A DNA stretch of 12,844 nt from Pseudomonadota bacterium (lineage in GTDB: Bacteria > Pseudomonadota > Gammaproteobacteria > Burkholderiales > Gallionellaceae): positions 1-12,844 of the forward strand of contig JAJXTL010000077.1 in assembly GCA_021783855.1 (NCBI GenBank), written 5' to 3'. Position numbers and translations under genes: made by a program. How positions within the stretch are numbered: the stretch's first letter is position 1; each line of letters opens with the position of its first letter. This document shows, piece after piece, positions 1 to 12,591 of this stretch. The notes under the pieces are model-generated. The model had not been told where the DNA came from, did no database searches, and was given only the letters and a program-made list of their open reading frames with translations.

Positions 1-3
1 TGA

Positions 4-174
4 TTGACGGTAATCGCGGAGGGAGTGGAGACTATCGAACAACTGATCTATCTGCGCACAATACAATGCGATGAAATACAAGGCTACCTGTTCAGCCGCC
101 CGGTCCCCGGTGAAGAAATGACGCGCCTGTTACAAAGCGGTTGCAGCCTGAACCTGTCTGCGGAGGCATGGTGA
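4..174 (+). pseudogene. 3' end of an EAL-domain (c-di-GMP phosphodiesterase type) gene, frame closed at the window edge
   Basis: The frame from base 4 to the TGA at 172-174 encodes 56 residues. They contain two hallmarks of the C-terminal part of EAL domains: VIAEGVET near the start, and QGYLFSRPV about 30 residues later. EAL domains hydrolyse c-di-GMP. The catalytic EAL motif itself would lie upstream, outside the window. The codon directly before this frame (bases 1-3) is TGA. EAL proteins normally have a glycine there ([11 protein letters not shown]), so a GGA-to-TGA change would explain it. Seen as it stands, the gene is interrupted 57 codons before its end. If the window begins at a contig edge, the stop could be a sequence error, and the entry would then be the tail of an intact gene. 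The domain identity is secure; pseudogene status is tentative. Confidence 0.6.
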
Positions 175-298
175 ACAACGAGAATTCGCGTGACTGCCAT
201 TGCCTAAGCGCCGGGCAAAGAATTTACAACGTCGAAGCGTGCGCGCCTCACCCTGATCCACTTGAAACCGGCTTTGGCCGCTCACGCAGGAGGAACCT
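175..298. other. Intergenic region before the signalling operon
   Basis: This 124-base gap separates the EAL gene end from the GAF kinase. It is the most likely place for the operon promoter, because every later junction up to 10612 is 80 bases or shorter. I see no convincing sigma-70 promoter. A weak pair, TTGCCT at 200-205 and TTTACA at 223-228 with 17-base spacing, is the best I can find. I see no terminator hairpin after the EAL stop, so read-through from upstream is also possible. Confidence 0.4.
288..293 (+). promoter_or_regulatory. Ribosome binding site fixing the GTG start at 299
   Basis: A perfect AGGAGG lies 5 bases upstream of a GTG codon. No other in-frame start nearby is as well placed, so the GAF kinase is taken to begin with GTG at 299. 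The same 5-base spacing recurs at several other genes in this operon. Confidence 0.8.
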
Positions 299-1720
299 GT
301 GTCTCTGAATAAACTGAAACAACTGAGCTGGGTTTATGACCTGAATCTCATGGGGCTGGCTTCGGCTGACGTGGAGGACGGTTCGTCCATTTATCAGCGC
401 ATTCTGCAGCATATCGTGAACGGATTCGAGGCGGACAGCGGCTCACTCGCTTTGCTGGATAAAGATGGGAAATATATGACCATCGTTGCCGGAATCGATC
501 TGCCGACTGGCGTTATTGGCCTGCAAATCGCACCGGGAGAAGGTGTGCTTGGCTGGGTGCTGAAGGAAAACACGCCGTTGTTGCTGAACGGTGATGCCTC
601 CAGCGATACTCGGTTTCAGCGGAATCGAGAAAGGCAAGGCCAAGCCGCCAATACCTCTGCGATGTGCTGGCCGTTGAAAACCGAAGAAGGTGCCATCGGT
701 GGGGTTTCCGTGAATCGTTGCATAGGTGCGTCGGTCGGCATGAATCGAACCGGCGACAAACCGCCATTCACTGAGTCTGAGTTGGAAATAGGCATGGCCT
801 TGCTGGGTATGGTCAGCCTGGCTTTGAGCAACATCCGGTTGCATAGCGAGCAGCGGCAACGGCTGATCGAATTGCAGCAACTTAACCAGCAACTGAAAGA
901 CGCCCAAAATCACCTGCTGCAATCGGATAAGATGGCTTCCATCGGCCAGCTTGCAGCGGGCGTGGCGCACGAGATCAACAACCCGATAGGTTATGTTTAT
1001 TCCAATCTGGGTACACTGGAAAAATATGTACAGGACACCTTTGCCATCCTGGCAATGTACGAGCAGGCGGAGGGTTCGATCAGCGACCCTGAGGTACGTG
1101 GCAGACTCAAGGCGGCACGAGATAAACTGGACATTGCGTTTCTCAAGGAAGATTTGCGCGATTTAATGAGTGAATCGAAAGACGGCATCACCCGGGTCAA
1201 AAATATCGTACAGAACCTGAAGGACTTTTCGCACGCGGATGCCGCCGATGAATGGCATAGCTCCGATCTGCATATTGGCCTTGAAAGTACGCTGAACATC
1301 GTCAACAACGAAATCAAGTACAAGGCGGACGTAGTCAGAGAGTATGGAGAGCTGCCTGAGATTGTATGTCTGCCCTCGCAACTCAATCAGGTGTTCATGA
1401 ATCTGCTGGTCAATGCGGCACATGCAATCGAGGAGCGCGGTAAAATTACAATACGCACCGGACGGCAAGCTGATGAGGTGTGGGTGGAGATCGCCGATAC
1501 CGGCAAGGGAATTTCTCAGGAGCACATGAAAAAAATCTTCGATCCGTTTTTCACCACCAAACCCGTCGGCAAGGGCACGGGTCTGGGGCTGTCGCTCTCC
1601 TACGGCATTATCGAGAAACATCAGGGCAGGATCGAAGTACAAAGCGAAATTGGCCGTGGCACGACTTTCCGTGTGTGGTTGCCGGTCAGGCAGCCTGAAC
1701 AGACAGGAAACGGGACGTAA
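299..1720 (+). CDS. GAF-domain sensor histidine kinase
   Basis: The protein has 473 residues and no membrane segment or signal peptide, so it should be cytosolic. Residues about 20-182 form a GAF sensor domain, followed by a short coiled coil (183-209). The dimerisation/phosphoacceptor region follows, with the H-box [13 protein letters not shown] (His224). The E-x-x-N just after the histidine (EINN) is the kind of motif that supports phosphatase as well as kinase activity. The ATPase domain has the N-box (N368, N372), G1 box DTGKG (400-404), F-box FDPFF (414-418) and G2 box GKGTGLG (424-430). All catalytic boxes look intact. There is no receiver or HPt domain, so it must pass phosphate to a separate protein; the receiver of the next gene is the nearest candidate. 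Its ligand is unknown. Cys123 and Cys141 lie in the GAF domain, but I cannot assign a cofactor. The 765-bp core is repeated in two downstream kinases. Confidence 0.92.
   Translation: MSLNKLKQLSWVYDLNLMGLASADVEDGSSIYQRILQHIVNGFEADSGSLALLDKDGKYMTIVAGIDLPTGVIGLQIAPGEGVLGWVLKENTPLLLNGDASSDTRFQRNRERQGQAANTSAMCWPLKTEEGAIGGVSVNRCIGASVGMNRTGDKPPFTESELEIGMALLGMVSLALSNIRLHSEQRQRLIELQQLNQQLKDAQNHLLQSDKMASIGQLAAGVAHEINNPIGYVYSNLGTLEKYVQDTFAILAMYEQAEGSISDPEVRGRLKAARDKLDIAFLKEDLRDLMSESKDGITRVKNIVQNLKDFSHADAADEWHSSDLHIGLESTLNIVNNEIKYKADVVREYGELPEIVCLPSQLNQVFMNLLVNAAHAIEERGKITIRTGRQADEVWVEIADTGKGISQEHMKKIFDPFFTTKPVGKGTGLGLSLSYGIIEKHQGRIEVQSEIGRGTTFRVWLPVRQPEQTGNGT
929..1693 (+). repeat. Kinase-core paralogous repeat, copy 1 of 3
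   Basis: This 765-bp segment runs from the KMA before the H-box to the LPVRQ at the end of the ATPase domain. It aligns without any gap to 3512-4276 and 5659-6423. By eye, copies 1 and 3 differ at about 45 of 255 residues. Some DNA blocks are identical in all three copies, for example GATCCGTTTTTCACCACCAA at 1541-1560. It is a coding duplication, not a mobile element. Confidence 0.85.
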
Positions 1721-1733
1721 TGAACAATTATTT

Positions 1734-1739
1734 AAAGGA
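1734..1739 (+). promoter_or_regulatory. Ribosome binding site deciding the start at 1745
   Basis: AAAGGA ends right at the first in-frame ATG (1739), which is too close for initiation there. It lies 5 bases from the second ATG (1745), the same spacing as other genes in this operon. A third ATG at 1751 with GGGA upstream remains possible. Confidence 0.55.
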
Positions 1740-1744
1740 TGGGA

Positions 1745-3067
1745 ATGCAGATGAACGAGGCCGCTGAAACCCCGGAGATTCCGGCGACGATACTGTTTGT
1801 CGATGATGAGGCGAACATACTGTCATCGTTGAAACGTTTGTTTCGTCCTTTCGGTTATCGGATATTTACCGCGGAGGGCGGTGCGCAAGGATTGGAGATA
1901 CTGGCGCAGGAGAGCATCGATCTGGTGGTGTCCGATATGCGCATGCCGGAAATGAATGGCGCGCAATTCCTGGAAAAAGTTCGTGAACGGTGGCCCCAGA
2001 CGGTGCGCATCCTGTTGACCGGGTATGCCGAGATCGGTGCGACCATCGATGCCATCAACAAGGGGCAGATTTATCGCTACGTAGCCAAACCCTGGGAAGA
2101 CAACGATATCGCGCTGACTGTCAAACATGCCTTGCAGCAGAAAATGCTGGAACGCGAAAAACAGCGACTGGAGGTATTAACGCACAGACAGAATGAGGAA
2201 CTGAAGGATTTGAACGCACATCTTGAAGAAAAGGTGTTGGCGCGCACCAACGCATTGAACGAGACCATGCAATCCCTTGACGTGGCTCACGAGAAGTTGA
2301 AGAAAAGTTTTATTACCTCGGTGCGTGTTTTCTCCAATTTGATCGAGATGCGCAATCCGAGCAAGGCCGGGCATTCACGCCGTGTCGCCGAGCTTGCCCG
2401 CACGCTTGCGCAGAACATGGGCATGAGTGCTGCGGAAGTGCAGGATGTCTTTATTGCCGGTTTATTGCTCGATGTCGGCAAGATCGGCCTGCCGGATCGA
2501 CTGCTGGACAAGCCGTTTTCCAGTCTGACTTTCGATGAGCGCGCCGAGGTAGTCAAATATCCGGTCAAGGGTGAAATGGCTCTGATGGCGCTGGAGCAAC
2601 TGCAAGGTGCAGCCAAATTGATCCGCTGCCACCGCGAACGCTTCGATGGAACCGGCTACCCGGAACATTTGCCCGGCCTGTCCATACCGCTGGGCGCGCG
2701 CATTCTTGCCGTTGTCGAGGATTACGATACCGCCTTGATGGGCTCCAGTCACGCCAGGCCCATGAAGTTGGCGCAAGCACAGATCCTGATTCAGGACGGC
2801 AGAGCTAATCGTTACGATCCGGCGGTGCTGGATGCCTTTCTGGATGAGGTGAGCAAAGCCGGCACTGCGGTGGAGAGCAGCACTGAACTGTTGTTGCGTT
2901 CCACTCAAGCGAAACCGGGTATGATGCTTTCGCGAGACTTGATGACCCATACCGGTGAGATGTTGCTGGCTAAAGGGCATGTATTGGACGAAAAGATTAT
3001 TGAACAGATCAGAGGGTTCGAACGCATGGATGGTCATCCGCTCACGCTTAACGTCCATGTCGGCTGA
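1745..3067 (+). CDS. Response regulator: REC plus degenerate HD-GYP domain
   Basis: About 440 residues if started at the ATG at 1745, 24 bases after the GAF kinase; numbering below uses this start. Residues 15-125 are a complete receiver: acidic pair D20/D21, phosphoacceptor D64 (VSDMRMP), T92 and K115 (AKPW). A long coiled-coil linker (about 129-188) leads to an HD-GYP-type domain (about 190-350). The layout GHSRRV / GLLLDVGKIGLPD / CHRERFDGTGYP is clear. Intact HD-GYP enzymes hydrolyse c-di-GMP with a metal centre. Here several expected ligands are changed: the His of the HD pair is Leu242, the His of the HP motif is Tyr272, the second His of HHE is Arg297, and the metal Asp of the D-x-Y-D segment is Glu325. 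H210, D243 and H296 remain. I infer little or no phosphodiesterase activity and a role as a phosphorylation-driven binding or scaffold protein. The last 60 residues form a small extra domain (KPGMMLSRDL onward) that I recognise only as a common tail in such regulators. Confidence 0.85.
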   Translation: MQMNEAAETPEIPATILFVDDEANILSSLKRLFRPFGYRIFTAEGGAQGLEILAQESIDLVVSDMRMPEMNGAQFLEKVRERWPQTVRILLTGYAEIGATIDAINKGQIYRYVAKPWEDNDIALTVKHALQQKMLEREKQRLEVLTHRQNEELKDLNAHLEEKVLARTNALNETMQSLDVAHEKLKKSFITSVRVFSNLIEMRNPSKAGHSRRVAELARTLAQNMGMSAAEVQDVFIAGLLLDVGKIGLPDRLLDKPFSSLTFDERAEVVKYPVKGEMALMALEQLQGAAKLIRCHRERFDGTGYPEHLPGLSIPLGARILAVVEDYDTALMGSSHARPMKLAQAQILIQDGRANRYDPAVLDAFLDEVSKAGTAVESSTELLLRSTQAKPGMMLSRDLMTHTGEMLLAKGHVLDEKIIEQIRGFERMDGHPLTLNVHVG

Positions 3068-3092
3068 AAGACAATATCGGCGAGCAAAGCAA

Positions 3093-3110
3093 TTTTTTCC
3101 GGAGAAAAAA
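3093..3110 (+). promoter_or_regulatory. Small hairpin with the ribosome binding site in its loop
   Basis: The bases TTTTTTC (3093-3099) can pair with GAAAAAA (3104-3110). The four-base loop CGGA and the closing G hold the GGAG ribosome binding site (3101-3104). The last A is the first base of the ATG start. The stem is almost entirely A-U, so it would be weak. It may modulate translation of the REC-kinase or be chance. It is not a good terminator because no U-run follows the stem. Confidence 0.3.
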
Positions 3111-4348
3111 TGAAGATTTTTCTGGTTGATGATTCTCGTACCGTTGCGGCCGTCATGGTGCCGCGTTTGACATCATTTGGTCACGATGTAAGTGTTCTCG
3201 AAAATGGCCGGCTGGCATTCGAAAAATTTTGCGAATCGCCACCCGATCTGATATTGATGGACATTGAGATGCCGACCATGAACGGTTATGAGGCAACCAA
3301 GCGAATTCGCGCCTTTGAGGCGGCACAGCAATTGGCATGGACCCCAGTGATATTCCTGACAGCTTCTGACTCGGCGGAAAACATGGTAATGGCGATTGAT
3401 GCCGGCGGCGATGACTTTCTGCCAAAAAATTTATCGGAAAATGTCCTGCGCGCAAAAATGAAGGCTCTGGTGCGAATTTCCGAAATGAGAGGACAATTGC
3501 AACAAGCAGAAAAGATGGCCACGATAGGTCGGTTGGCGGCGGGCGTGGCACACGAAATCAACAACCCGATCGGTTACGTCTATTCCAATCTGGGTACGCT
3601 GGAGAAATATGTGCAGGATACCTTCTGTATGCTCAACCTGTACGAACAGACTGAACCAGAAATCGCCGATGCCGGCGTGCGTGAAAAACTCATGGAAGCC
3701 AGAAATAAGCTGGACATTGCTTTTCTCAAAGAAGACCTTCGCGCCTTGCTAGAAGAGTCCAGGGAAGGAATCACGCGAGTCAAGACTATCGTGCAGAATC
3801 TGAAAGATTTTTCGCACGTAGATGTCAACGATGAATGGCACTTCACCGATCTGCATAACGATATCGAAAGCACACTGAATATCGTCCACAACGAAATCAG
3901 GAACAAGGCGGATGTGGTCAGGGAATACGGTGAGTTGCCTGAAGTTGAGTGCCTGTCTTCGCAACTCAATCAGGTGTTCATGAACCTGCTGGTAAATGCC
4001 GCACATGCAATCGAGAAGCGCGGTACGATCACCATACGCACCGGACGAGAGGGTGATGAAGTGTGGGTGGAGATTGCCGATACCGGCAAGGGAATTCCCG
4101 TGGAAAATCTGAAGAAAATCTTCGATCCGTTTTTCACCACCAAATCCATCGGTAAGGGTACAGGACTGGGACTGTCGCTTTCCTATGGCATTATCCAGAG
4201 ACATCACGGCAGGATCGAAGTGCAAAGCGAGATGGGTATAAGAACATCGTTCAAGGTGTGGCTACCAGTAAAACATACTGATAGTCCCCCACCTGATCCG
4301 AATGGGGATAGTGCATTGCTGTCTGGGGCACGGGAAGTTTCTATGTAA
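3110..4348 (+). CDS. REC-histidine kinase (receiver at the N terminus)
   Basis: A 412-residue cytosolic protein. Residues 1-120 are a receiver with acidic pair D7/D8, phosphoacceptor D51 (LMDIEMP), T84 and K106. A short helix (123-134) connects it directly to the kinase core: H-box His148 in [14 protein letters not shown]-box NLLVNA, G1 box DTGKG at 324-328, FDPFFTT and GKGTGLG. Kinases with a receiver as input usually sense the phosphorylation state of a partner kinase, so this protein could couple the other kinases of the cluster to one another. It starts at ATG 3110, with GGAG 5 bases upstream and 42 bases after the HD-GYP regulator. Its kinase core is a gapless paralogue of those in the GAF and Cache kinases. 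The C-terminal tail of about 20 residues is low in recognisable features. Domain calls are secure; the partner is inference. Confidence 0.92.
3512..4276 (+). repeat. Kinase-core paralogous repeat, copy 2 of 3
   Basis: This 765-bp segment is homologous to 929-1693 and 5659-6423 with no insertion or deletion. It is the copy attached to the N-terminal receiver. The sequence upstream of the KMA codons shares no obvious similarity with the other two genes, so the duplication unit ends close to the start of the phosphoacceptor helix. Confidence 0.83.
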
Positions 4349-4401
4349 TACCATGTCAGAAAAATATCTCATGAACTACTTTTACTTTGCCAGCCTATTT
4401 T

Positions 4402-4408
4402 AGGAGGT
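4402..4408 (+). promoter_or_regulatory. Strong ribosome binding site for the Cache kinase
   Basis: AGGAGGT sits 5 bases before the ATG at 4414. It is the best Shine-Dalgarno match in the window and fixes this start over the out-of-frame ATG at 4410. The 65-base gap before the gene shows no clear promoter or terminator. Confidence 0.8.
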
Positions 4409-4413
4409 AATGC

Positions 4414-6432
4414 ATGCGTTTTTCTGATCTGAAGATCAAGTGGAAGATCATCCTTGCCGCAGGCATGTTCATTCCGATATCGATCGGGCTAATTATTTAT
4501 GTTTTTAACCAGATATATGTTCTGGAGGTCAGGACAGCACTTAATGGCCTGATGAGTTTTACAGACGCCAAGCAACAGGGGGTAATCCGGTTTATCGGCG
4601 CAAATGAAAAGTTAGCCCGGCAACTGGCGCTGCTGGTTAGCCAGGCCCCGCCAGAAGTGTCCAGAAATTACTTCGCTGAAATTGTCGCCACAGATGTATT
4701 CAAGCCAGAAGCACATCCGTTCATGAAGGAAATCGAAGCGGGCGTGCGGCATATTCCGACCTGGCGGACCTACCACGCCATCGACTATGTCGACAACGGC
4801 GTCATCGTAATCTCATCGGATCCTTCCCGTGTAGGGCGCCGGATGGATAAGGTTCCCGATCTTCAACACGGATATTCCGATGTGTATCTGGACGGCGATA
4901 TACCGGTTTTCACTTTTGGCGCACCAAGCGGACATGGCATGGTGTATATCCATGCCGATGCCAGAATGCTCACCAACATCGTGAACGGCGAGATCGGCAA
5001 TCTGGAGGCGGGTATGGGCGCCTTCTATCTGGCCGGCGTGGGCAAAACTTTTGACTACTATCTCGTGAACAAGGACAACCTCCTGATAACCGAATCAAGA
5101 GTCTTTCCCGATGCGCTCCTGAAGCGTCGTGGCAGTGAATTCCCGTGGAAGGCTACCCAACAGAAACTGGGCATTGTCTGCAACGCACAGGGCGTTTATA
5201 CCACCAACGCAGGAAGCGTCACCGGATGTCGTGAAGCAATGGGATTTTATCAAGGTGTCAGCGGCAAGCTCATGCTGGGTGCATCAATGCCGTTCTACGA
5301 TTCCGGATGGACGCTGGTGGTTGAACAGGAAGCGGATGAATTGCTGATGCCCCTCACCACGCTGCGCCACAGCATGTTCGGGTTCATTATCGTGGCAGGT
5401 CTGGCATCCTTTCTGATATTTATTGTCATCATCAACCGCTACATTTCCAACCCGATCAGCCAACTCATTAACTCCATCGGGACGATAAAACAAACCGGTG
5501 ATCTATCGCATCAGGCGAATATAAGCGGCAATGATGAGATTGGACAGACAGCGAAGGCTTTTAATGCCATGGTGAGCACGCTGCATGCCGAGAAAGAGCG
5601 TCAACAGTTACTCAACAAGTATTTGAAAGAAGCACAAGATCAGTTACTTCAATCTGAGAAGATGGCCTCGATCGGCCAACTGGCGGCAGGTGTTGCACAC
5701 GAAATCAACAACCCGATCGGCTATGTCTACTCCAATCTGGGCACGCTGGAAAAATATGTGCTGGATACCTTTGGGCTGCTCGACCTGTATGAACAGGCGG
5801 AGGTCACAATCAGGGATACTGCTGTGCGGACGAAGCTTAAAGAGGCAAGAAGTACGCTGGATATTGCATATCTCAAGGAAGACCTGCGCGCATTGATGTG
5901 TGAGTCCAAAGACGGCATCACGCGCGTCAAAAATATCGTGCAGAACCTGAAGGACTTCTCCCATGTGGACGCCTCGGACGAATGGCATTTTGCCGACCTG
6001 CATAAGGGGATAGACAGCACGCTGAACATCGTCAACAACGAGATCAAATACAAGGCGGATGTGGTCAAGGAGTACGGCGAGCTGCCGGAAGTGGAATGCC
6101 TGTCCTCGCAACTCAACCAGGTCTTCATGAACCTGTTGGTGAACGCATCTCATGCAATCGAGGGGCGGGGCACCATCACCATCCGTACCGGGCTGCAAGG
6201 CGACGAAGTGTGGGTGGAAATCGTCGATACAGGCAAGGGGATTTCCACAGAAAACCTGAAGAAAATCTTCGATCCGTTTTTCACCACCAAACCCATCGGC
6301 ACGGGCACAGGGTTGGGTTTGTCGCTCTCTTACGGCATTATCCAGAAACATCACGGCAGGATCGAAGTGCAGAGCGAAATTGATAAAGGTACGACTTTTC
6401 GAGTGTGCTTGCCTGTAAGACAGCCATCATAA
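4414..6432 (+). CDS. Membrane sensor histidine kinase: periplasmic Cache-like domain, HAMP, kinase core
   Basis: A 672-residue inner-membrane kinase. Transmembrane segment 1 spans about residues 11-31 and segment 2 about 319-343. Between them is a periplasmic domain of about 285 residues, whose size and features (the [12 protein letters not shown] helix, the SSDPSRVG strand, the late [16 protein letters not shown] segment) fit a double-Cache sensor of small molecules. A HAMP domain (about 341-393, with NPISQL and NDEIGQ) and a coiled coil lead into the kinase core. The H-box has His429, followed by N-box NLLVNA, DTGKG at 605-609, FDPFFTT and GTGTGLG. The catalytic residues look intact. Two cysteines in the sensor domain (256 and 272) are close enough to form a disulfide. 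This is the only member of the cluster that can read signals outside the cytoplasm. Its ligand is unknown, and the exact Cache subclass needs structural comparison. Confidence 0.9.
5659..6423 (+). repeat. Kinase-core paralogous repeat, copy 3 of 3
   Basis: A 765-bp core, gapless against copies 1 (929-1693) and 2 (3512-4276), here fused to a Cache-HAMP sensor. Conservation is highest in the H-box, the [18 protein letters not shown] helix, the N-box and the G boxes. It is lowest in the segment after the first helix, which often carries partner specificity. Confidence 0.83.
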
Positions 6433-6512
6433 TGGGCGTGTCCCCACTCGCGCTTGACATTCATGCCTGAAGAGTAACGCTGTGTTATGAATTTATTAAT
6501 CAAGAAAGAACC

Positions 6513-7178
6513 ATGGCTGAACTCGACGAAACAGCGCGCAAACTAACCATCAAGCTGGTCTATTATGGGCCTGCCATGAGCGGTAAAACCACCAATCTGA
6601 TTGGTTTGCATGATCTGCTGTCCCCTGACTTGAAAGGCGAACTGATGACGCTGGAAACGCAGAATGACAGGACGCTGTTCTTCGATCTGTTACCACTGGG
6701 TTTTCGCACGCCGACCGGCTGGCTGGTCAAATTCAAGCTCTATACGGTTCCTGGACAAGTGGTGCATGATGCGACGCGCAAGGCCGTTCTGTCGCGTGCA
6801 GACGGCGTGGTCTTCGTGGCGGATTCGCAACGCTCGCAAGGTGTCAACAATGCCGAGTCTTTCCAGAATCTGGAAGAGAACGTGCGCCGCGTCGGTCTGG
6901 ATTTCGAGACGCTGCCTCTGGTGGTGCAATTCAATAAACGCGACCTGTCCAATGTGCTGTCTGAGGATGAGATAGGGGAACGCTGGTCTGCCGCCCCCTG
7001 GCCGCTGGTGATGGCGTCCGCACTGACGGGCATCGGCGTGCGTGAAACGTTCGTCAAATTGCTGGAAGCGGTCTACCCGGCTCTGGACAGGAATTTCTCC
7101 CTGCACCAGACGCTGGGCACGGATGCCCGGTCTTTTATCAATGCCGCCACAGGAGAGCCGCTTGGAAATCCACGCTAG
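6513..7178 (+). CDS. mglA: MglA-type small Ras-like GTPase
   Basis: A 221-residue cytosolic GTPase of the MglA family, which sets cell polarity and controls type IV pilus or gliding motors by switching between GTP and GDP forms. The P-loop is GPAMSGKTT (19-27). Switch I contains NDRTLFFDLLP with Arg53, and switch II contains TVPGQ with Gln82. The base-specificity motif is NKRD (141-144), and an SALTG segment follows (169-173). Arg53 and Gln82 occupy the positions known to matter for GTP hydrolysis in Myxococcus MglA. P-loop position 21 is Ala instead of the Gly of the Myxococcus protein. No MglB/Roadblock gene is present in the window. The start at 6513 has only a purine-rich AAGAAAGAA upstream, so translation may be modest. 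The last codons overlap the following kinase gene, so the two are probably translated together and act together. Confidence 0.9.
   Translation: MAELDETARKLTIKLVYYGPAMSGKTTNLIGLHDLLSPDLKGELMTLETQNDRTLFFDLLPLGFRTPTGWLVKFKLYTVPGQVVHDATRKAVLSRADGVVFVADSQRSQGVNNAESFQNLEENVRRVGLDFETLPLVVQFNKRDLSNVLSEDEIGERWSAAPWPLVMASALTGIGVRETFVKLLEAVYPALDRNFSLHQTLGTDARSFINAATGEPLGNPR
7151..7155 (+). promoter_or_regulatory. Ribosome binding site deciding the TTG start at 7162, inside mglA
   Basis: AGGAG lies 6 bases before TTG at 7162, inside the last codons of the GTPase gene. The more upstream in-frame starts (ATG 7042 and ATG 7141) have no Shine-Dalgarno and would add residues encoded only in the overlap. The arrangement suggests translational coupling. 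Confidence 0.6.
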
Positions 7179-8391
7179 AGGGTATGACCGCGCATTGAGT
7201 CTGCGCGAATTGCTGTCCGGTGTCGTGCCGGGCAAATTGTCTGCCGCATTGACTGTACTGCTGGGCGCGCCGGCCAGGGTCATATCCGCCGATGGCACCT
7301 GGGTGATGGGCGACGCTCCCGCGTTAGTGGCGACCGCGAGGCGGCTGCCGCTGCTCCACGATCTGGAAACCGCGGGCTTCCTTGAAACGACTGCCGCAGA
7401 TGAGGGGCGGGTGCGCGCCGTCGCAATCATACTGGAATCGTTGATGCGTTCCGGAGCCCGTTACTTCATGGCGTCCGAAATGCATATCGAAGTGGTGAAA
7501 ACGGACTTTGAAGAATTGCAGCGCAGACATGAGGCGTTGACGGCATCCGAGGCGCGTTACAAGGCTCTGTCAGCGCATCTGGAAGAACGCGTCAAAGAGC
7601 AGGTGAATACCATCGAGTCCGCCCGCCGCCAGCTTTATCAGGCCGAGAAACTGGCCTCGGTCGGGCAACTGGCGGCCGGCGTGGCGCACGAGATCAACAA
7701 TCCGATCGGTTTCATCCGCAGCAATCTGAGCACGGCGCAGTCCTATGTGCAGAAATTCCAGCATGTGGCTGAGCAAGTCAAATCCAGCGGCGACGCCGCA
7801 CTGGCCATTGCATGGCAGTCTGCCGACCTCGATTTCGTGCTGGAAGATTTTCCGTCCCTGTTGCAGGAAAGTGTAAACGGCGCCGACCGGGTGGCACGCA
7901 TCGTGTCGGATCTCAAAGGCTTTTCCAATGTGGATCAGGCCGAAGAAGAAATCGTCGATCTCAACGAAAATATCCGCTCTGCCTGCAATGTGGCTGCCAA
8001 CCAGATCAGCAGCCGAGCCGATCTGAAACTTGAGCTGGGCGAATTGCCAAAATTACGCTGCCAGGCCGGTCATCTGAGTCAGGTATTCCTCAATCTGTTG
8101 CTCAATGCGGCGCACGCGATGAAACAACGCGGCGAAATCAGCATCCTGAGCGGCGTCGAAAACAGTCAAATCGTTATTCGCTTCAAGGATACCGGGTGCG
8201 GCATACCGCCCGATATTTTGCCGCGCATTTTCGATCCGTTTTTCACCACTAACGACGTGGGCGCAGGTACCGGACTGGGATTGACGGTGAGTCGCGACAT
8301 CATCCTGGCGCATGGCGGCAGTATCGAAGCGAACAGCACAACCGATGCAGGTACCACCTTTACCATCCATTTGCCCATAAGGAATACTTAA
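7162..8391 (+). CDS. Histidine kinase with an unassigned N-terminal domain, overlapping the MglA gene
   Basis: About 409 residues from the TTG start (numbering from there); it overlaps the GTPase gene by 17 bases. Residues 1-105 form a domain I cannot name. The pattern (a helix, then GAPARVISADGTWVMGD as two strands, LPLLHDLETAGFLET, then a long helix ending RYFMASEMH) would fit a reduced GAF, PAS or Roadblock-like fold. A coiled coil follows (about 107-160). The kinase core has His176 in [14 protein letters not shown], an N-box (N311, N315), DTGCG (343-347), FDPFFTT (357-363) and GAGTGLG (367-373). This core belongs to the same family as the three upstream kinases but is clearly more diverged and is not part of the 765-bp repeat set. 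The gene sits between the GTPase and the REC-ATPase, with a single base before the latter. That suggests it connects MglA state to phosphorylation of the ATPase. It has no membrane segment. Confidence 0.88.
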   Translation: MEIHARGYDRALSLRELLSGVVPGKLSAALTVLLGAPARVISADGTWVMGDAPALVATARRLPLLHDLETAGFLETTAADEGRVRAVAIILESLMRSGARYFMASEMHIEVVKTDFEELQRRHEALTASEARYKALSAHLEERVKEQVNTIESARRQLYQAEKLASVGQLAAGVAHEINNPIGFIRSNLSTAQSYVQKFQHVAEQVKSSGDAALAIAWQSADLDFVLEDFPSLLQESVNGADRVARIVSDLKGFSNVDQAEEEIVDLNENIRSACNVAANQISSRADLKLELGELPKLRCQAGHLSQVFLNLLLNAAHAMKQRGEISILSGVENSQIVIRFKDTGCGIPPDILPRIFDPFFTTNDVGAGTGLGLTVSRDIILAHGGSIEANSTTDAGTTFTIHLPIRNT

Positions 8392-8392
8392 C

Positions 8393-10612
8393 ATGGCCGG
8401 TTACGCATCCCTGTTCACCGGCGCCGCACCGACCGAGAAAGTCCCTGAACGCCCGGTCAGCTACCGCATCCTGCTGGTGGACGATGAACCGAATGTGCTC
8501 AAGGCCTTGCAGCGTGTGTTCCGCCAGGAAAACTATGCAGTCCTGACCGCATCCGGCGGGCAGGAGGCGCTGGCCTTGTTAAGCCGTGAACCATTCCACC
8601 TGATGATCTCCGATTACATGATGCCCGGCATGACGGGGGCCGAATTGCTGCGGCAGGTCAAGGCGATCAAACCCGAGATCATCCGCATCATGCTGACGGG
8701 CCACGCCGACACAAGCGCCGTGATGGGCGCCATCAACGAAGGCGCGGTATATAAATTCATCCTGAAGCCGTGGAACGACGATGACCTGCGCGTGACCGTG
8801 GCGCTTGCGCTGGAACAATACGACCTGATCCAGAAAAACAAGACGCTGCAACAGGACAACGCGCAGAAATCAAAAGAGATCAGTGCGCTTGCCAAGCTGA
8901 CGGTCAGCAACCGCAGCCAGCTGGCTATCATGTTGAACAAGAAAAATCTGTTGAACAGCCAGCAGGTACAGGAGTTGTATCGTCTGCAACAACAGCGTAA
9001 GGAACCCCTGATCAAGCTGCTGCTGGAGCGCGATTGGGTGTCTGAGAAAACCATACACGACATACTGCGCAAAGAATTGCTGATAGAAGAGGTATCGCTG
9101 GCGGAATTTCAGATCGATACTGCCGTCGCCGCGCTGATCCCGCGCAGCTTCTGCGAGCGTCAACTGGTCGTCCCGTTGCGGCTGGAAGGAAAACGCTTGC
9201 TGCTGGCATTGGCCGATCCGCTGGATATCGGGCTGCTCGACGACTTGCGCTTCGTCTCCGGACTGGAGATACAGCCGGTCATTTCCGGCGTGGCTGCTAT
9301 CCGAGCAAAACTGGCGGCGATGTACGGCAGCGACGTCGATTTCAAGGATCTGGAAACGCTGGTTTCCGGCCCCGACCCTTACGAGGGCATCGAGGTCGTC
9401 ATCGAGGAAGAGGACAACCAGTCGCTGGAGGAACTGCTGCGCGACACCAACGAGCCGCCGGCAATCCGCCTGGTCAACGCAGTGATCATTGAGGCGGTCA
9501 GGCTCGGCGCCAGCGACATCCACATCCAGCCGCGCACCAAGAGCGTGATGGTGCGTTACCGCATCGACGGCGTGCTGGTGGACAAAATCCAGATTCCGTC
9601 TCAATTGCTTCAATCGCTGGTATCGCGCCTGAAGGTAATGGCGGAGATGGATATCAGCGAACGGCGGCGCCCGCAGGACGGACGCATCACCGTCAAGACG
9701 CCGATGCGCATCGTCGATCTGCGCATATCCACTCTGCCCACCATCAACGGCGAGAAAGTGGTGATGCGCATCCTCGACCGCAATTCGGCCATCGTAGGTC
9801 TGGACGGACTGGGATTTTCACCAAGTGACTTGCAGAAAATCCTTAACATGGTGGACAAGCCGCAGGGACTTGTTCTGACCACCGGCCCCACCGGCAGCGG
9901 CAAAACAACGACGCTCTACGCGCTGCTGCAACACAACGCCTCGCCCACCAAGAACTATGTCACGATCGAAGACCCGGTGGAGTACTACATGGATCAGGCA
10001 GGCCAGGTACTGATCAAGGAGAAGATCGGCCTGACCTTTCCGGTGGTGCTGCGCACCATTCTGCGCCAGGACCCGGACGTGATATTGCTTGGCGAGATAC
10101 GCGATTTCGAGACGGCGGAAGTCGCGTTTCACGCGGCGCTGACGGGGCACCTGGTGTTCTCGACGCTGCACACCAACTCGGCGGTGGCGACGCTTTCCCG
10201 TCTGTTCGATCTGGGGCTTAAACCTTACGTGGTCGCCACCGCATTGGAGGGCATCGTGGCACAGCGTCTGACCCGGAAAATATGCGAGCATTGCCGCGAG
10301 CCGGTTTCCCCTGCACCCGAACTGTTGGCAAGGCTGGGGCCGCTGTTCACGCAGTCCACTATAACCGCCTTTAAGGGCAGTGGCTGCGATCGCTGCAACG
10401 GCAGCGGCTACAAGGGGCGCATCGGCTTGTATGAAGTGCTGGTTCTTAACGACCTGATGCGGCATCTCATCAACAGCGGTGCCACCATCATGGATATCAC
10501 CAATTACGCGCGCGAGATGGGCACCTCGACGCTGCTCGAAGATGGTCGCAACAAGGTCAATCAGGGCGTGACCACGCTTGACGAATTGCTGCGCGTGCTG
10601 GGGCCGCAGTAG
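8393..10612 (+). CDS. Receiver-MshEN-like-PilB/GspE fusion: phosphorylation-controlled assembly ATPase
   Basis: A 739-residue cytosolic protein. Residues 24-140 are a full receiver (D30/D31, phosphoacceptor D74 in ISDYMMP, T102, K125 in LKPW). A coiled helix follows. Residues about 170-312 form an N-terminal domain of the GspE/PilB/MshE type, with two 24-residue MshEN-like motifs (176-199 and 205-228) separated by five residues. The C-terminal half is a type II secretion/type IV pilus hexameric ATPase. It has Walker A GPTGSGKTTT (498-507), Asp box TIEDPVEY (524-531), Walker B region DPDVILLGEIRD with Glu568, His box TGHLVFSTLHTN (584-595), and a four-cysteine zinc site C631/C634/C665/C668. 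All ATPase motifs are intact, so it should power pilus extension or secretion-fibre assembly. A receiver on such an ATPase is unusual. It starts 1 base after the kinase stop, with AAGGAA 8 bases upstream. No pilin, PilC or PilT genes are present in the window. Confidence 0.93.
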   Translation: MAGYASLFTGAAPTEKVPERPVSYRILLVDDEPNVLKALQRVFRQENYAVLTASGGQEALALLSREPFHLMISDYMMPGMTGAELLRQVKAIKPEIIRIMLTGHADTSAVMGAINEGAVYKFILKPWNDDDLRVTVALALEQYDLIQKNKTLQQDNAQKSKEISALAKLTVSNRSQLAIMLNKKNLLNSQQVQELYRLQQQRKEPLIKLLLERDWVSEKTIHDILRKELLIEEVSLAEFQIDTAVAALIPRSFCERQLVVPLRLEGKRLLLALADPLDIGLLDDLRFVSGLEIQPVISGVAAIRAKLAAMYGSDVDFKDLETLVSGPDPYEGIEVVIEEEDNQSLEELLRDTNEPPAIRLVNAVIIEAVRLGASDIHIQPRTKSVMVRYRIDGVLVDKIQIPSQLLQSLVSRLKVMAEMDISERRRPQDGRITVKTPMRIVDLRISTLPTINGEKVVMRILDRNSAIVGLDGLGFSPSDLQKILNMVDKPQGLVLTTGPTGSGKTTTLYALLQHNASPTKNYVTIEDPVEYYMDQAGQVLIKEKIGLTFPVVLRTILRQDPDVILLGEIRDFETAEVAFHAALTGHLVFSTLHTNSAVATLSRLFDLGLKPYVVATALEGIVAQRLTRKICEHCREPVSPAPELLARLGPLFTQSTITAFKGSGCDRCNGSGYKGRIGLYEVLVLNDLMRHLINSGATIMDITNYAREMGTSTLLEDGRNKVNQGVTTLDELLRVLGPQ

Positions 10613-10659: not shown

Positions 10660-11184
10660 CTATCGAATATCCTGCACCGCAATGCCTGCGGGGAGCGCGC
10701 TCGGCAGGTAAGCACGCCCAGCGAAGCTGCGCGGACGCCCACCCGATTCCACAACCAGATCTGCCTCGTGCTGATTGACGAACCGATGACCGGCGTATAC
10801 CTGCCCGGATTGGCGAGCAATCATCTTATCGAAATGCGGCCCCATGAGCTGTCGAAGATCGGGCTTGAAGGGACCGGACCAGGCAACGGCAAACACCACG
10901 CCCGCTATGGAGACATATTGCCGGACCATCGTGCCGGTAGGCAAAGTTGTTTCATAAACGATGTAGCTACCGTTCGATGACGGGGTTTGGCGGACCGCAT
11001 GATATGCCTTCATGCGTACCCGATCCGTCTCAATGCTGGCGCCATCACCGCCGAGTGACGCATGAGCCGCAACGACATAACATGCCATGAACAGTGTCAC
11101 CACCCATGTAACGAGATAACGCTGCGTGGCATTTGTCCTATTGGCCTGCGTAATTACCGTCAAAGCGTGAGTATGGAAGTGCAT
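10660..11184 (-). CDS. DUF2844 family exported protein
   Basis: A 174-residue protein with an unusually long N-terminal region. A hydrophobic segment (about 24-40) ends in AHA followed by SLGGDGASIETDRV, so a signal peptidase I cut after residue 42 is likely and the mature protein is periplasmic or secreted. The mature part carries the pattern I associate with DUF2844: ASLGG at its start, LPTGTMVRQYVS, then GVVFAVAWSGPFKPDLRQLMG. The family has no known biochemical function that I can state. The ATG at 11184 is preferred over more upstream starts because GAGGAT lies just before it on the - strand and the residues upstream do not resemble a signal peptide. It lies 79 bases downstream of the DUF3443 gene, on the same strand, so the two are probably co-transcribed. 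Confidence 0.8.
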   Translation of the reverse strand: MHFHTHALTVITQANRTNATQRYLVTWVVTLFMACYVVAAHASLGGDGASIETDRVRMKAYHAVRQTPSSNGSYIVYETTLPTGTMVRQYVSIAGVVFAVAWSGPFKPDLRQLMGPHFDKMIARQSGQVYAGHRFVNQHEADLVVESGGRPRSFAGRAYLPSALPAGIAVQDIR

Positions 11185-11187
11185 ATT

Positions 11188-11193
11188 ATCCTC
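11188..11193 (-). promoter_or_regulatory. Ribosome binding site for the DUF2844 gene
   Basis: Read on the - strand, GAGGAT lies 3 bases before the ATG at 11184 (5 bases if only the GAGG core is counted). It decides this start over the longer open frame that reaches into the end of the DUF3443 gene. Confidence 0.6.
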
Positions 11194-11263
11194 ATGAGTT
11201 AATGATTCGGTAAAATTCTTCCAGCGTAGCAGCGGGATGCTTATCGCAAATGCCGTGCCTTTA

Positions 11264-12565
11264 TCAGTACGCAAAGTAAGGCCCGGGAGTGCCAGTGCCT
11301 GGCGTACTCATGCCCGAGATAGCCGTAAATACAGAGCGACCGAAAAAGAAGGGCAGGCCCCAATCAAATTGATTGCTTATATTCGGGCCGGCGATATTTG
11401 CTGCAACAATATTTTGACCAAGGTTGTCGGCACCGACTATGCTGAAGTTTACAGGGGGGCCGCTGGGACTCCCGGTTGCTGCGGCATTGATGGCACTCTG
11501 ACTCATCGGCGATGGAATCGGGCAGTAAGCCCATGTAGTAACAGAGCATACAGGGATGCTGCTGTCTTGAAAAAACAGGCCATTCGATCCACTGTCGATG
11601 AAACTGCCGGACATCAGCACATTCTTGAATGTGGTTCTGAAGTTGCCATATAAATCGGTTGCATACGGGACGGCTGAGCCAAGCGCGTTGTTTACCTCGG
11701 TGCCGATGCCGAAAATAAGAGAGCCGGTGAGGCTGGCGGCGCCGGCATTTGAAACCGCAGGCAATTGAATCAACACACCGTTGTTGTCCTGAGCAAAGAG
11801 GGCTACAGGATTTTTGACGACCTGCGCGGCAGTTACCGTCGATCCTGTGCAACCGGTCGAGGTGCAAGTGTAATAGGCGGCAGCGACTGGCTGTATCAGG
11901 CATTGATCGCAGTCATTCGTAAAAAGTCCAACACCCAGAATTCCCTTGGCGCCAAGCAGAGCCGCAGTATTCTGGATAGTACCGGAGCTGGAACAATCGC
12001 TGGGAACAGCCGTTACCCCGCCAGGTTGATCCCCTATGTCCTGGATGGGAACAGATCGCGCGACTTCACCGCCAAGGTAAATATCTGCGAGCAGCACTGA
12101 ACCCCAAGTCGCGCCGACCCCGAAAACTTCGCATTCGCCAATCGCATTGCCACTTTGGGTAACCGCCGGCAGGGACAGGTTGGAATATAGCGTGGAATTC
12201 AGAAGCCGCAGCCCGGATGAACCGGTATCCAACAACACATGATCGATTGTCTGGCAGGCGGCATTGGCTCCCGCGGTACCTGGAGTGCAGACCGTGACCG
12301 AGACGTAGGGTACATTGATTTCACTCACGCCCGGCACTGGGCCTGCATCGATTACAATGGGCATAACATTTCCAGTAGTTGTCGGGTGCGGTATCAACGT
12401 GCCGGGGCCGCTACGAGAGTAAGATGCGCTCTGGGTCTGGGTCTGAGTCTGAGTGGCAGATGTGTTTGCGGCGCTGCCGCCACCACCCCCGCATGCTGCC
12501 GCCAGCACCGTAATTATCGCTAGCAGGATATGCGTGCCGAAGGAAAATTTATGTTTAGAATTCAT
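11264..12565 (-). CDS. DUF3443 family lipoprotein, aspartic-protease-like
   Basis: A 433-residue protein from the ATG at 12565. The N terminus is a lipoprotein signal: hydrophobic residues 12-24, then Cys25 in LAAAC followed by five glycines, so it is probably anchored in the outer membrane or the periplasmic face of the inner membrane. A low-complexity linker with four Thr-Gln pairs (39-46) follows. The body has the pattern I know from DUF3443. It includes VLLDTGSSGLRLL (Asp113), GILGVG (208-213) and FIDSGSNGLFF (Asp324), which resemble the two catalytic Asp-Thr/Ser-Gly loops and the hydrophobic-Gly element of pepsin-like proteases. Ten cysteines besides Cys25 suggest disulfides in an oxidising compartment. 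Whether it cleaves anything is unknown. The start at 12565 has only a weak GGA upstream; a TTG at 12577 would add four residues but sits against GGAG with no spacing. It leads a two-gene unit with DUF2844. Confidence 0.82.
   Translation of the reverse strand: MNSKHKFSFGTHILLAIITVLAAACGGGGGSAANTSATQTQTQTQSASYSRSGPGTLIPHPTTTGNVMPIVIDAGPVPGVSEINVPYVSVTVCTPGTAGANAACQTIDHVLLDTGSSGLRLLNSTLYSNLSLPAVTQSGNAIGECEVFGVGATWGSVLLADIYLGGEVARSVPIQDIGDQPGGVTAVPSDCSSSGTIQNTAALLGAKGILGVGLFTNDCDQCLIQPVAAAYYTCTSTGCTGSTVTAAQVVKNPVALFAQDNNGVLIQLPAVSNAGAASLTGSLIFGIGTEVNNALGSAVPYATDLYGNFRTTFKNVLMSGSFIDSGSNGLFFQDSSIPVCSVTTWAYCPIPSPMSQSAINAAATGSPSGPPVNFSIVGADNLGQNIVAANIAGPNISNQFDWGLPFFFGRSVFTAISGMSTPGTGTPGPYFAY
12431..12454 (+). 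repeat. Four tandem hexamers encoding Thr-Gln repeats
   Basis: CTGGGT twice followed by CTGAGT twice. On the - strand they encode four Thr-Gln pairs in the linker just after the lipid anchor of the DUF3443 protein. The six-base unit keeps the frame, so slippage would change linker length and not switch the gene off. Confidence 0.8.
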
Positions 12566-12591
12566 GGGTGGATCCAACTCCGAAGTGCAAA
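12565..12591 (+). repeat. IS30-type terminal-repeat-like sequence at the DUF3443 start
   Basis: These 27 bases match the IS30-type end at 12737-12763 at 20 of 27 positions, in the same orientation, 172 bases apart. The outermost TGGG and the inner AAGTGCAAA blocks are identical. It overlaps the DUF3443 start codon and leader. It could be a relic end of a lost IS30 copy, or an end-like target site of the kind IS30 elements prefer. Confidence 0.45.

Follow-up and report, generated by a model that had tools for sequence, protein, structure and literature searches.

The stretch from position 1 to 12,844 of contig JAJXTL010000077.1 in the Gallionellaceae assembly GCA_021783855.1 (the window) carries seven collinear plus-strand open reading frames within positions 299 to 10,612, as a preliminary description of this DNA had stated. 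The conserved unit among them is a core of three genes, which encode an MglA-family GTPase, a histidine kinase (HK6) with an N-terminal domain designated N6, and a PilB-like ATPase with a receiver domain of its own (REC-PilB), and which some environmental bacteria inherit together as neighbours. On balance, the locus appears to be a control module of three genes. It would serve a pilus extension motor regulated by phosphorylation, in most cases an additional one next to the canonical PilB, and accessory sensors would plug into it.

A scan of genome contigs anchored on MglA kept 80 loci (L numbers) from 90 relatives. Identity to MglA is 61–97% in L001–L044 and at most 51% in the other 36. The first 44 belong to beta- or gammaproteobacterial groups or are labelled just Proteobacteria, L022 (Candidatus Polarisedimenticolaceae) being the exception. 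The closest relatives by MglA, all metagenome genomes, are L001 (97%), L002 (Gallionella, 88%) and L003 (Candidatus Ferrigenium, 86%), which fall in one family sample. The contig of L044 ends inside mglA and hence shows neither HK6 nor ATPase; each of the other 43, which continue beyond mglA, has near this gene both a REC-PilB receiver and a kinase of the N6 type. Of the 44 loci, 39 include the T2SSE domain and the remainder are cut by contig ends; in L043 the kinase and ATPase genes are divergent to mglA.

Because this first scan was anchored on MglA, three separate profiles were then run on fixed samples of 274 genomes of the class and 320 of the order (G numbers). The survey alignments were subsets (A2, 29 rows; A3, 28; A4, 26), and since scoring in the genome searches is confined to the best candidates from a loose first pass, misses are possible. 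In the class sample, N6 was found in six genomes, MglA at 361 bits or more in six (followed by a partial one of 232 bits in G060 and six others of at most 68 bits) and REC-PilB at 276 bits or more in six (next match 96 bits). The six are the same for all three, and MglA, the N6-kinase and the receiver-MshEN part of the ATPase are adjacent in every one. The order sample yielded 24 genomes with MglA, 24 with N6 and 30 with REC-PilB. The MglA and N6 sets are identical, with the two genes adjacent in 24/24; the REC-PilB set includes them, and N6 adjoins REC-PilB in 23/24, G693 being split over contigs. The two surveys are not wholly independent, since the order lies within the class and some genomes are rows of the query alignments.

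The preliminary description had treated all seven genes as one circuit expected to recur in other genomes. This holds for MglA, HK6 and REC-PilB and fails for the full set: genes 3 and 4 are absent from L001, and the REC-HD-GYP gene (gene 2) and the other kinases, though common, can be dispensed with. A chance clustering of signalling genes with no joint function could point to this uneven content, with genes 3 and 4 in a segment missing from the closest relative and accessory genes varying among relatives. For the core it is contradicted by the matching sets of carrier genomes and the adjacency in two surveys, and it is very improbable for the locus as a whole, while for genes 3 and 4 it may be right. 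Protein distances of MglA, N6, the HK6 core, the receiver of gene 7 (REC7) and T2SSE also correlate (r 0.66–0.86 over the 30 complete loci, without L001 and L023), though values of this size can arise from shared ancestry alone.

In REC-PilB, residues D30, D31, D74, T102 and K125 of the receiver are found in 40 of 40 aligned sequences, as are K504 of Walker A, E568 of Walker B, H593 of the His box and the four cysteines of the tetracysteine motif. In the Asp box, E526 is kept in 40/40 and D527 in 37/40. Asp74, singled out by the preliminary description as the phosphorylation site, is placed correctly in the receiver of the ATPase. By its sequence motifs the protein is an extension ATPase of the PilB/GspE kind in the wider sense. 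When its residues 1–360 served as a protein query, 1610 proteins were matched, and the best 120 of these all carry receiver, MshEN and T2SSE; among the best 5000 records of a plasmid search none reached 80% cover, and identities were all below 60%. The MshEN-like repeats keep their spacing and have lost the motif arginine: position 176 is Q in 39/40 (R in one) and position 205 is P in 36/40 (S in four), with the motif placed by eye. In MshEN receptors the motif for cyclic diguanosine monophosphate (c-di-GMP) reads RLGxx... with this arginine (PMC10333796, in excerpt).

PilB is the top profile of REC-PilB and its best solved relative by sequence, and in the tree (three duplicate rows left out) REC-PilB forms a clade of its own apart from canonical PilB (support 0.70–0.77, long branch). 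The type IVa pilus protein PilO occurs in 24/24 host genomes. PilB itself is over its cut-off in 20 of the 24, so REC-PilB is usually an additional motor beside the canonical one. Inside the REC-PilB clade, the copies of G545, G579, G608 and G666 and the second copy of G693 form one side branch (support 1.0). Their loci (L161–L165) have no MglA or N6-kinase nearby, and a type IV pilin gene (N_methyl and Pilin domains) lies upstream in the four that reach far enough (L161–L164). The gene between pilin and REC-PilB encodes a TPR protein in the three that were scanned; L161 has a transposase gene as well. A pilus role of the ATPase is thus supported indirectly, by PilB as the best solved relative, by PilO in all hosts and by the pilin genes of the side branch.

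Several observations weigh against the proposed pilus control module. REC-PilB contains the receiver, MshEN and T2SSE domains of a REC-fused PilB/GspE ATPase, as first described, but misses the cut-offs of both families: that of PilB (TIGR02538) with 576.5 of 675.65 bits and that of GspE (TIGR02533) with 541.2 of 630.25. As both are missed, sequence does not fix which machine it serves. Apart from the ATPase, no gene of the window was recognised as a pilus gene, nor did a profile scan of the window proteins recognise a Roadblock-type gene for a GTPase-activating protein, which makes the description of the cluster as a self-contained circuit doubtful. The T2SSE distances agree with those of HD-GYP (r 0.86) as well as with those of HK6 (0.84), so the core is not singled out; with HD-GYP values equally high (up to 0.86), the correlations give no pairing of kinase and receiver. 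Six of the 30 order genomes with REC-PilB show no match to MglA or the N6-kinase. Four of them are the side-branch genomes; in G439 the match is a 542-residue T2SSE protein (L166:6286-7914), a REC-PilB relative without receiver, and in G646 the match starts 1.2 kb from a contig end, which would cut off N6 and mglA. For Myxococcus, MglA tested in a two-hybrid assay against PilB itself showed no signal (PMC7519303, in excerpt). Finally, 0/100 genomes of the family Gallionellaceae have PilB over the cut-off, most of them lacking a recognisable REC-PilB.

This last survey concerns a candidate that was rejected, namely that REC-PilB has replaced canonical PilB in the family. In G001–G004 (L143–L146) pilC and pilD are kept and pilB is missing from between its usual neighbours; G001, G002 and G003 share a family, and G004 belongs to Nitrosomonadales. 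At a limit of E ≤ 1e-158, with at most 12 candidates scored per genome, REC-PilB is recognisable only in G002 and G003, the G001 copy being cut by a contig end, and the few other matches are unclassified frames of 701–833 residues. Because the loss of PilB is family-wide, displacement by REC-PilB is not supported as a rule.

The nearness of the two profile scores (541 and 576 bits) would also suit a motor for another T2SSE/T2SSF machine, that is, type II secretion or a pseudopilus in place of type IVa pili, with the control logic unchanged. The hosts carry several T2SSE paralogues (24 genomes) and T2SSF paralogues (nine genomes), and the kinase cores of the window best match the NCBI family T2SS_HK (NF038348; 372, 347, 375 and 273 bits), though all lie below its cut-off of 450. 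Such a machine is unlikely, given PilB as both top profile and top solved relative and the pilin genes beside the side-branch members. Nor were any gsp genes noticed next to the core, a weak point as T2SSE was the only gsp query in the set.

The GTPase shows in 45/45 aligned sequences the P-loop residues G19, G24, K25 and T26, the arginine finger R53 beside T54, the motif T78VPGQ82 and, in G4, N141KRD144. An arginine finger next to the G2 threonine and TVPGQ in G3 are the features of Group 1 MglA (PMC4316618, in excerpt), and the MglA profile matches MglA of M. xanthus and T. thermophilus at 183–191 bits. The same excerpt describes widely varying neighbourhoods of Group 1 genes and coupling to MglB for 404 of 488 sequences of the MglA clade. 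In the genomes examined here, a Robl_LC7 protein (PF03259, MglB-type), whose gene is a typical though not a defining neighbour of mglA, was not found in 19 of 24 hosts by a search that rang in controls such as Thermus, and the five hosts with PF03259 never have it on the contig of the cluster.

The N6 domain of HK6 has a predicted GAF/Roadblock-like fold. Sequence comparison of N6 with Roadblock (hhalign, hmmsearch) gave nothing useful with a Roadblock set of six sequences, one of them in the wrong frame. The best 50 matches listed in a fold search with the whole HK6 model are mostly histidine kinases and are silent on N6. N6 could be an ordinary small-ligand sensor of GAF-like type, with MglA encoded beside it only because the two share a target: MglA would position the ATPase and HK6 would switch it. 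This is quite possible, a little short of an even chance. It sits less easily with the failure to find Robl_LC7 proteins in 19 of 24 hosts, and in the surveys N6 turned up only in genomes with this MglA, next to it in 24/24 and 6/6, a tighter coupling than a free-standing ligand sensor needs. The bolder proposal, put forward tentatively, is that the small GTPase gates a two-component phosphorelay: N6 would replace MglB as the partner of MglA, the GTP state would set the kinase or phosphatase activity, and the output would be direct phosphorylation of the receiver fused to the motor. If true, three genes would suffice for the entire spatial control of a molecular motor.

Table 1. Features of the window, with positions counted from its first base.
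Feature	Position	Strand	Remark
EAL-type protein, 3' tail only	1..174	+	in the nearest relative L001 the gene encodes REC-GGDEF-EAL, 605 aa (L001:5252-7066, Pfam)
GAF histidine kinase HK1, 473 aa, accessory	299..1720	+	
Receiver and HD-GYP protein (REC-HD-GYP, gene 2), NosR family, 442 aa	1739..3067	+	
REC-kinase HK3, 412 aa	3110..4348	+	within segment absent from L001
HAMP-kinase HK4 (gene 4), 672 aa; no Pfam sensor match in its N-terminal sensor region	4414..6432	+	also within that segment
MglA-family GTPase, Group 1 hallmarks, 221 aa, core gene	6513..7178	+	
HK6: N6 domain, DHp and CA kinase core, about 409 aa, core gene	7162..8391	+	TTG start inferred
REC-PilB: receiver (D74), MshEN-like region and T2SSE ATPase, 739 aa, core gene	8393..10612	+	
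DUF2844 and DUF3443 genes, adjacent, convergent to the cluster	10660-12577	-	

The genes of the cluster are closely spaced (Table 1), with gaps of 18, 42, 65 and 80 bp from the HK1 gene up to mglA. HK6 most likely starts at a TTG preceded by AGGAG (7151-7155), judging from the sequence, and would then overlap the end of mglA; between its stop codon and the start codon (ATG) of REC-PilB lies a single base. Long open reading frames in L005, L012 and L041 that resembled HK6–REC-PilB fusions are overlapping frames. In L028 a protein with two receiver domains is encoded between HK6 and REC-PilB (L028:11927-12889).

The cluster has four kinases and three receivers, and a profile scan of the window proteins found no C-terminal receiver or HPt match in the kinases, in line with what had been noted before. 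The assignment of the kinases to one core family needs refinement. The cores of HK1, HK3 and HK4 are 76–82% identical to each other and that of HK6 only 46–48% to them, so that the family consists of three recent copies and one older kinase; the region HEINNPIG is common to the kinases. For gene 4, described as a Cache-HAMP kinase, HAMP is borne out and Pfam lends no support to Cache, with no match at E ≤ 10; its sensor region likewise has no match to solved chains by sequence at E ≤ 1.

In terms of inheritance, the four kinases are one core kinase and three variable ones. In the 31 loci with at least 3 kb to the left and 4 kb to the right of mglA, a further HK1-family kinase occurs in 28, REC-HD-GYP in 25 and a small receiver protein in 23, and three loci have none of these. 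A GAF1-matching kinase was seen in 18 of the 43 loci of the first scan, several of which are cut. Positions 6897-9962 of L001 align with 2-3068 of the window at 90%; genes 3 and 4 then lie in a 3.4-kb segment (about 3069-6450) that L001 lacks. In L001 mglA comes immediately after the REC-HD-GYP gene, an order shared with L003 and L004. Both segment ends (window 3045-3068 and 6451-6474) correspond to one and the same stretch of 24 bases in L001, where the REC-HD-GYP gene ends, so the insertion of the segment may have involved a duplication. The small receiver protein (e.g. L006:9360-10022) occurs in 31/43 loci, is absent from the window and was not found in L001–L004. Its C-terminal tail is conserved around PGITxVxWGxDGSVILD (by eye; also read as PGITKVxWGxDGSVILD). 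In Methylomonas (L030:8672-9841) a stand-alone EAL-YkuI_C protein is encoded upstream of mglA.

The HD-GYP domain of gene 2 (HD_5, 133 bits) had not been mentioned before. The protein scores 567.8 bits against the NosR family (NF053512), over the cut-off of 400. Its metal ligands are degenerate (L244, Y274 and R299, with LD, Y274 and HRE in place of the HD and HHE ligands), while at the same positions 37 aligned rows have His244 in 29, Asp in 31 and the second His of HHE in 30. As most relatives keep the ligands lost here, the HD-GYP domain of the window is, by its sequence, probably not an active phosphodiesterase. The NosR match brings in the reading that the kinases act on REC-HD-GYP and c-di-GMP only, with the receiver of the ATPase an unphosphorylated docking module: NosK phosphorylates NosR, a REC-HD-GYP protein with a degenerate motif as here (PMC12570481, in excerpt), and the receivers REC2 and REC7 are 43% identical. 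This is rather improbable, since residues D30, D31, D74, T102 and K125 of the ATPase receiver are invariant, unlike in a pseudo-receiver, and no REC-HD-GYP was counted in L029–L032 (L031 with little left flank). In these same four loci no family kinase besides HK6 and no receiver besides REC-PilB was counted at the thresholds used, with just 1.0 kb of left flank in L031 and weak receiver and kinase matches (22–45 bits) further downstream on the other strand in L030 and L032; this is a hint that HK6 serves REC-PilB.

G060, with its partial MglA, shows a different arrangement. On its contig 130 (L101–L103) a divergent or partial MglA lies near family kinases and REC-HD-GYP, and the contig pieces read have no N6 or REC-PilB match. 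About 9 kb away there is a different GspE-type ATPase with an RLG-type motif, together with a PilT/PilU-like open reading frame.

The scheme favoured here builds on the gene content, co-inheritance, adjacency and residue conservation described above; the molecular interactions in it, namely phosphotransfer, MglA binding and localisation, are inferred. HK6 would autophosphorylate on the histidine of HEINNP and would phosphorylate Asp74 of REC-PilB, or dephosphorylate it via the HExxN motif. Phosphorylation of Asp74 would switch the ATPase on or off at the base of a type IVa pilus encoded elsewhere. MglA-GTP may determine where or when this happens, through binding to HK6 at its N6 domain, to the ATPase or to both. 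There is a precedent in Myxococcus, where PilB is recruited by MglA-GTP through SgmX (PMC11580455 and PMC7519303, in excerpt); MglA might here take over the role of MglA-SgmX, and HK6 could be the intermediate. The main target of the GAF-, REC- and HAMP-kinases would be the REC-HD-GYP protein, joined in relatives by the small receiver. Cross-talk from them to REC-PilB is plausible in view of the similarity of REC2 to REC7 and the shared HEINNPIG region.

No description of the MglA/HK6/REC-PilB trio or of a receiver-fused PilB was recognised among the papers that searches of an open-licence library listed, and the text of a study of Gallionellaceae genomes (PMC10734462) has no mention of pili, pilus, twitching, motility or PilB. 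Parts of the arrangement resemble known systems. In the actinobacterial conservon (CvnA kinase, CvnB Roadblock, CvnC, CvnD GTPase), a histidine kinase and an MglA-family GTPase are likewise encoded together (PMC4316618, in excerpt). The conservon has a Group 2 GTPase, CvnB and CvnC, whereas the present cluster has a Group 1 GTPase, no Roadblock gene on its contig and a motor ATPase as the third member. The nitric-oxide system NosP-NosK-NosR shares with it a HEINN kinase whose N-terminal region has no recognised sensor and a degenerate REC-HD-GYP (PMC12570481, in excerpt), but no FIST-domain match was found in the window genes, and MglA and REC-PilB are added here. The c-di-GMP-regulated motors, MshE and PilB with FimX, are also controlled ATPases of the PilB/GspE type, MshE through its N-terminal domain (PMC10333796, in excerpt). 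Unlike these, REC-PilB has lost the arginine of both motif repeats and has a receiver fused to it. It would be a PilB-type ATPase that appears to have swapped control by c-di-GMP for control by phosphorylation.

The nearest parallel in components is the control of PilB by MglA, SgmX and FrzS in Myxococcus xanthus, again with a Group 1 MglA and a PilB-type extension ATPase. That a polarity GTPase can reach a pilus motor is known from Myxococcus, where it does so through adaptor proteins (PMC7519303, PMC11580455, in excerpt), and MglA has response regulators, among them RomR and FrzS, as interaction partners (PMC11580455, PMC7519303, PMC4316618, in excerpt). Among the window genes none was recognised as resembling SgmX or RomR, neither having been searched for by name. 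In contrast to Myxococcus, one conserved gene cluster is found here, with the receiver fused to the ATPase, a kinase gene between GTPase and motor, and most hosts without a detectable Robl_LC7 protein. With the receiver on the motor itself, the question reduces to three proteins: whether the kinase phosphorylates the motor and what MglA-GTP does to this. Overall, the comparison suggests that the cluster combines the MglA control of pilus motors with two-component control, as a compact control device for surface pili.

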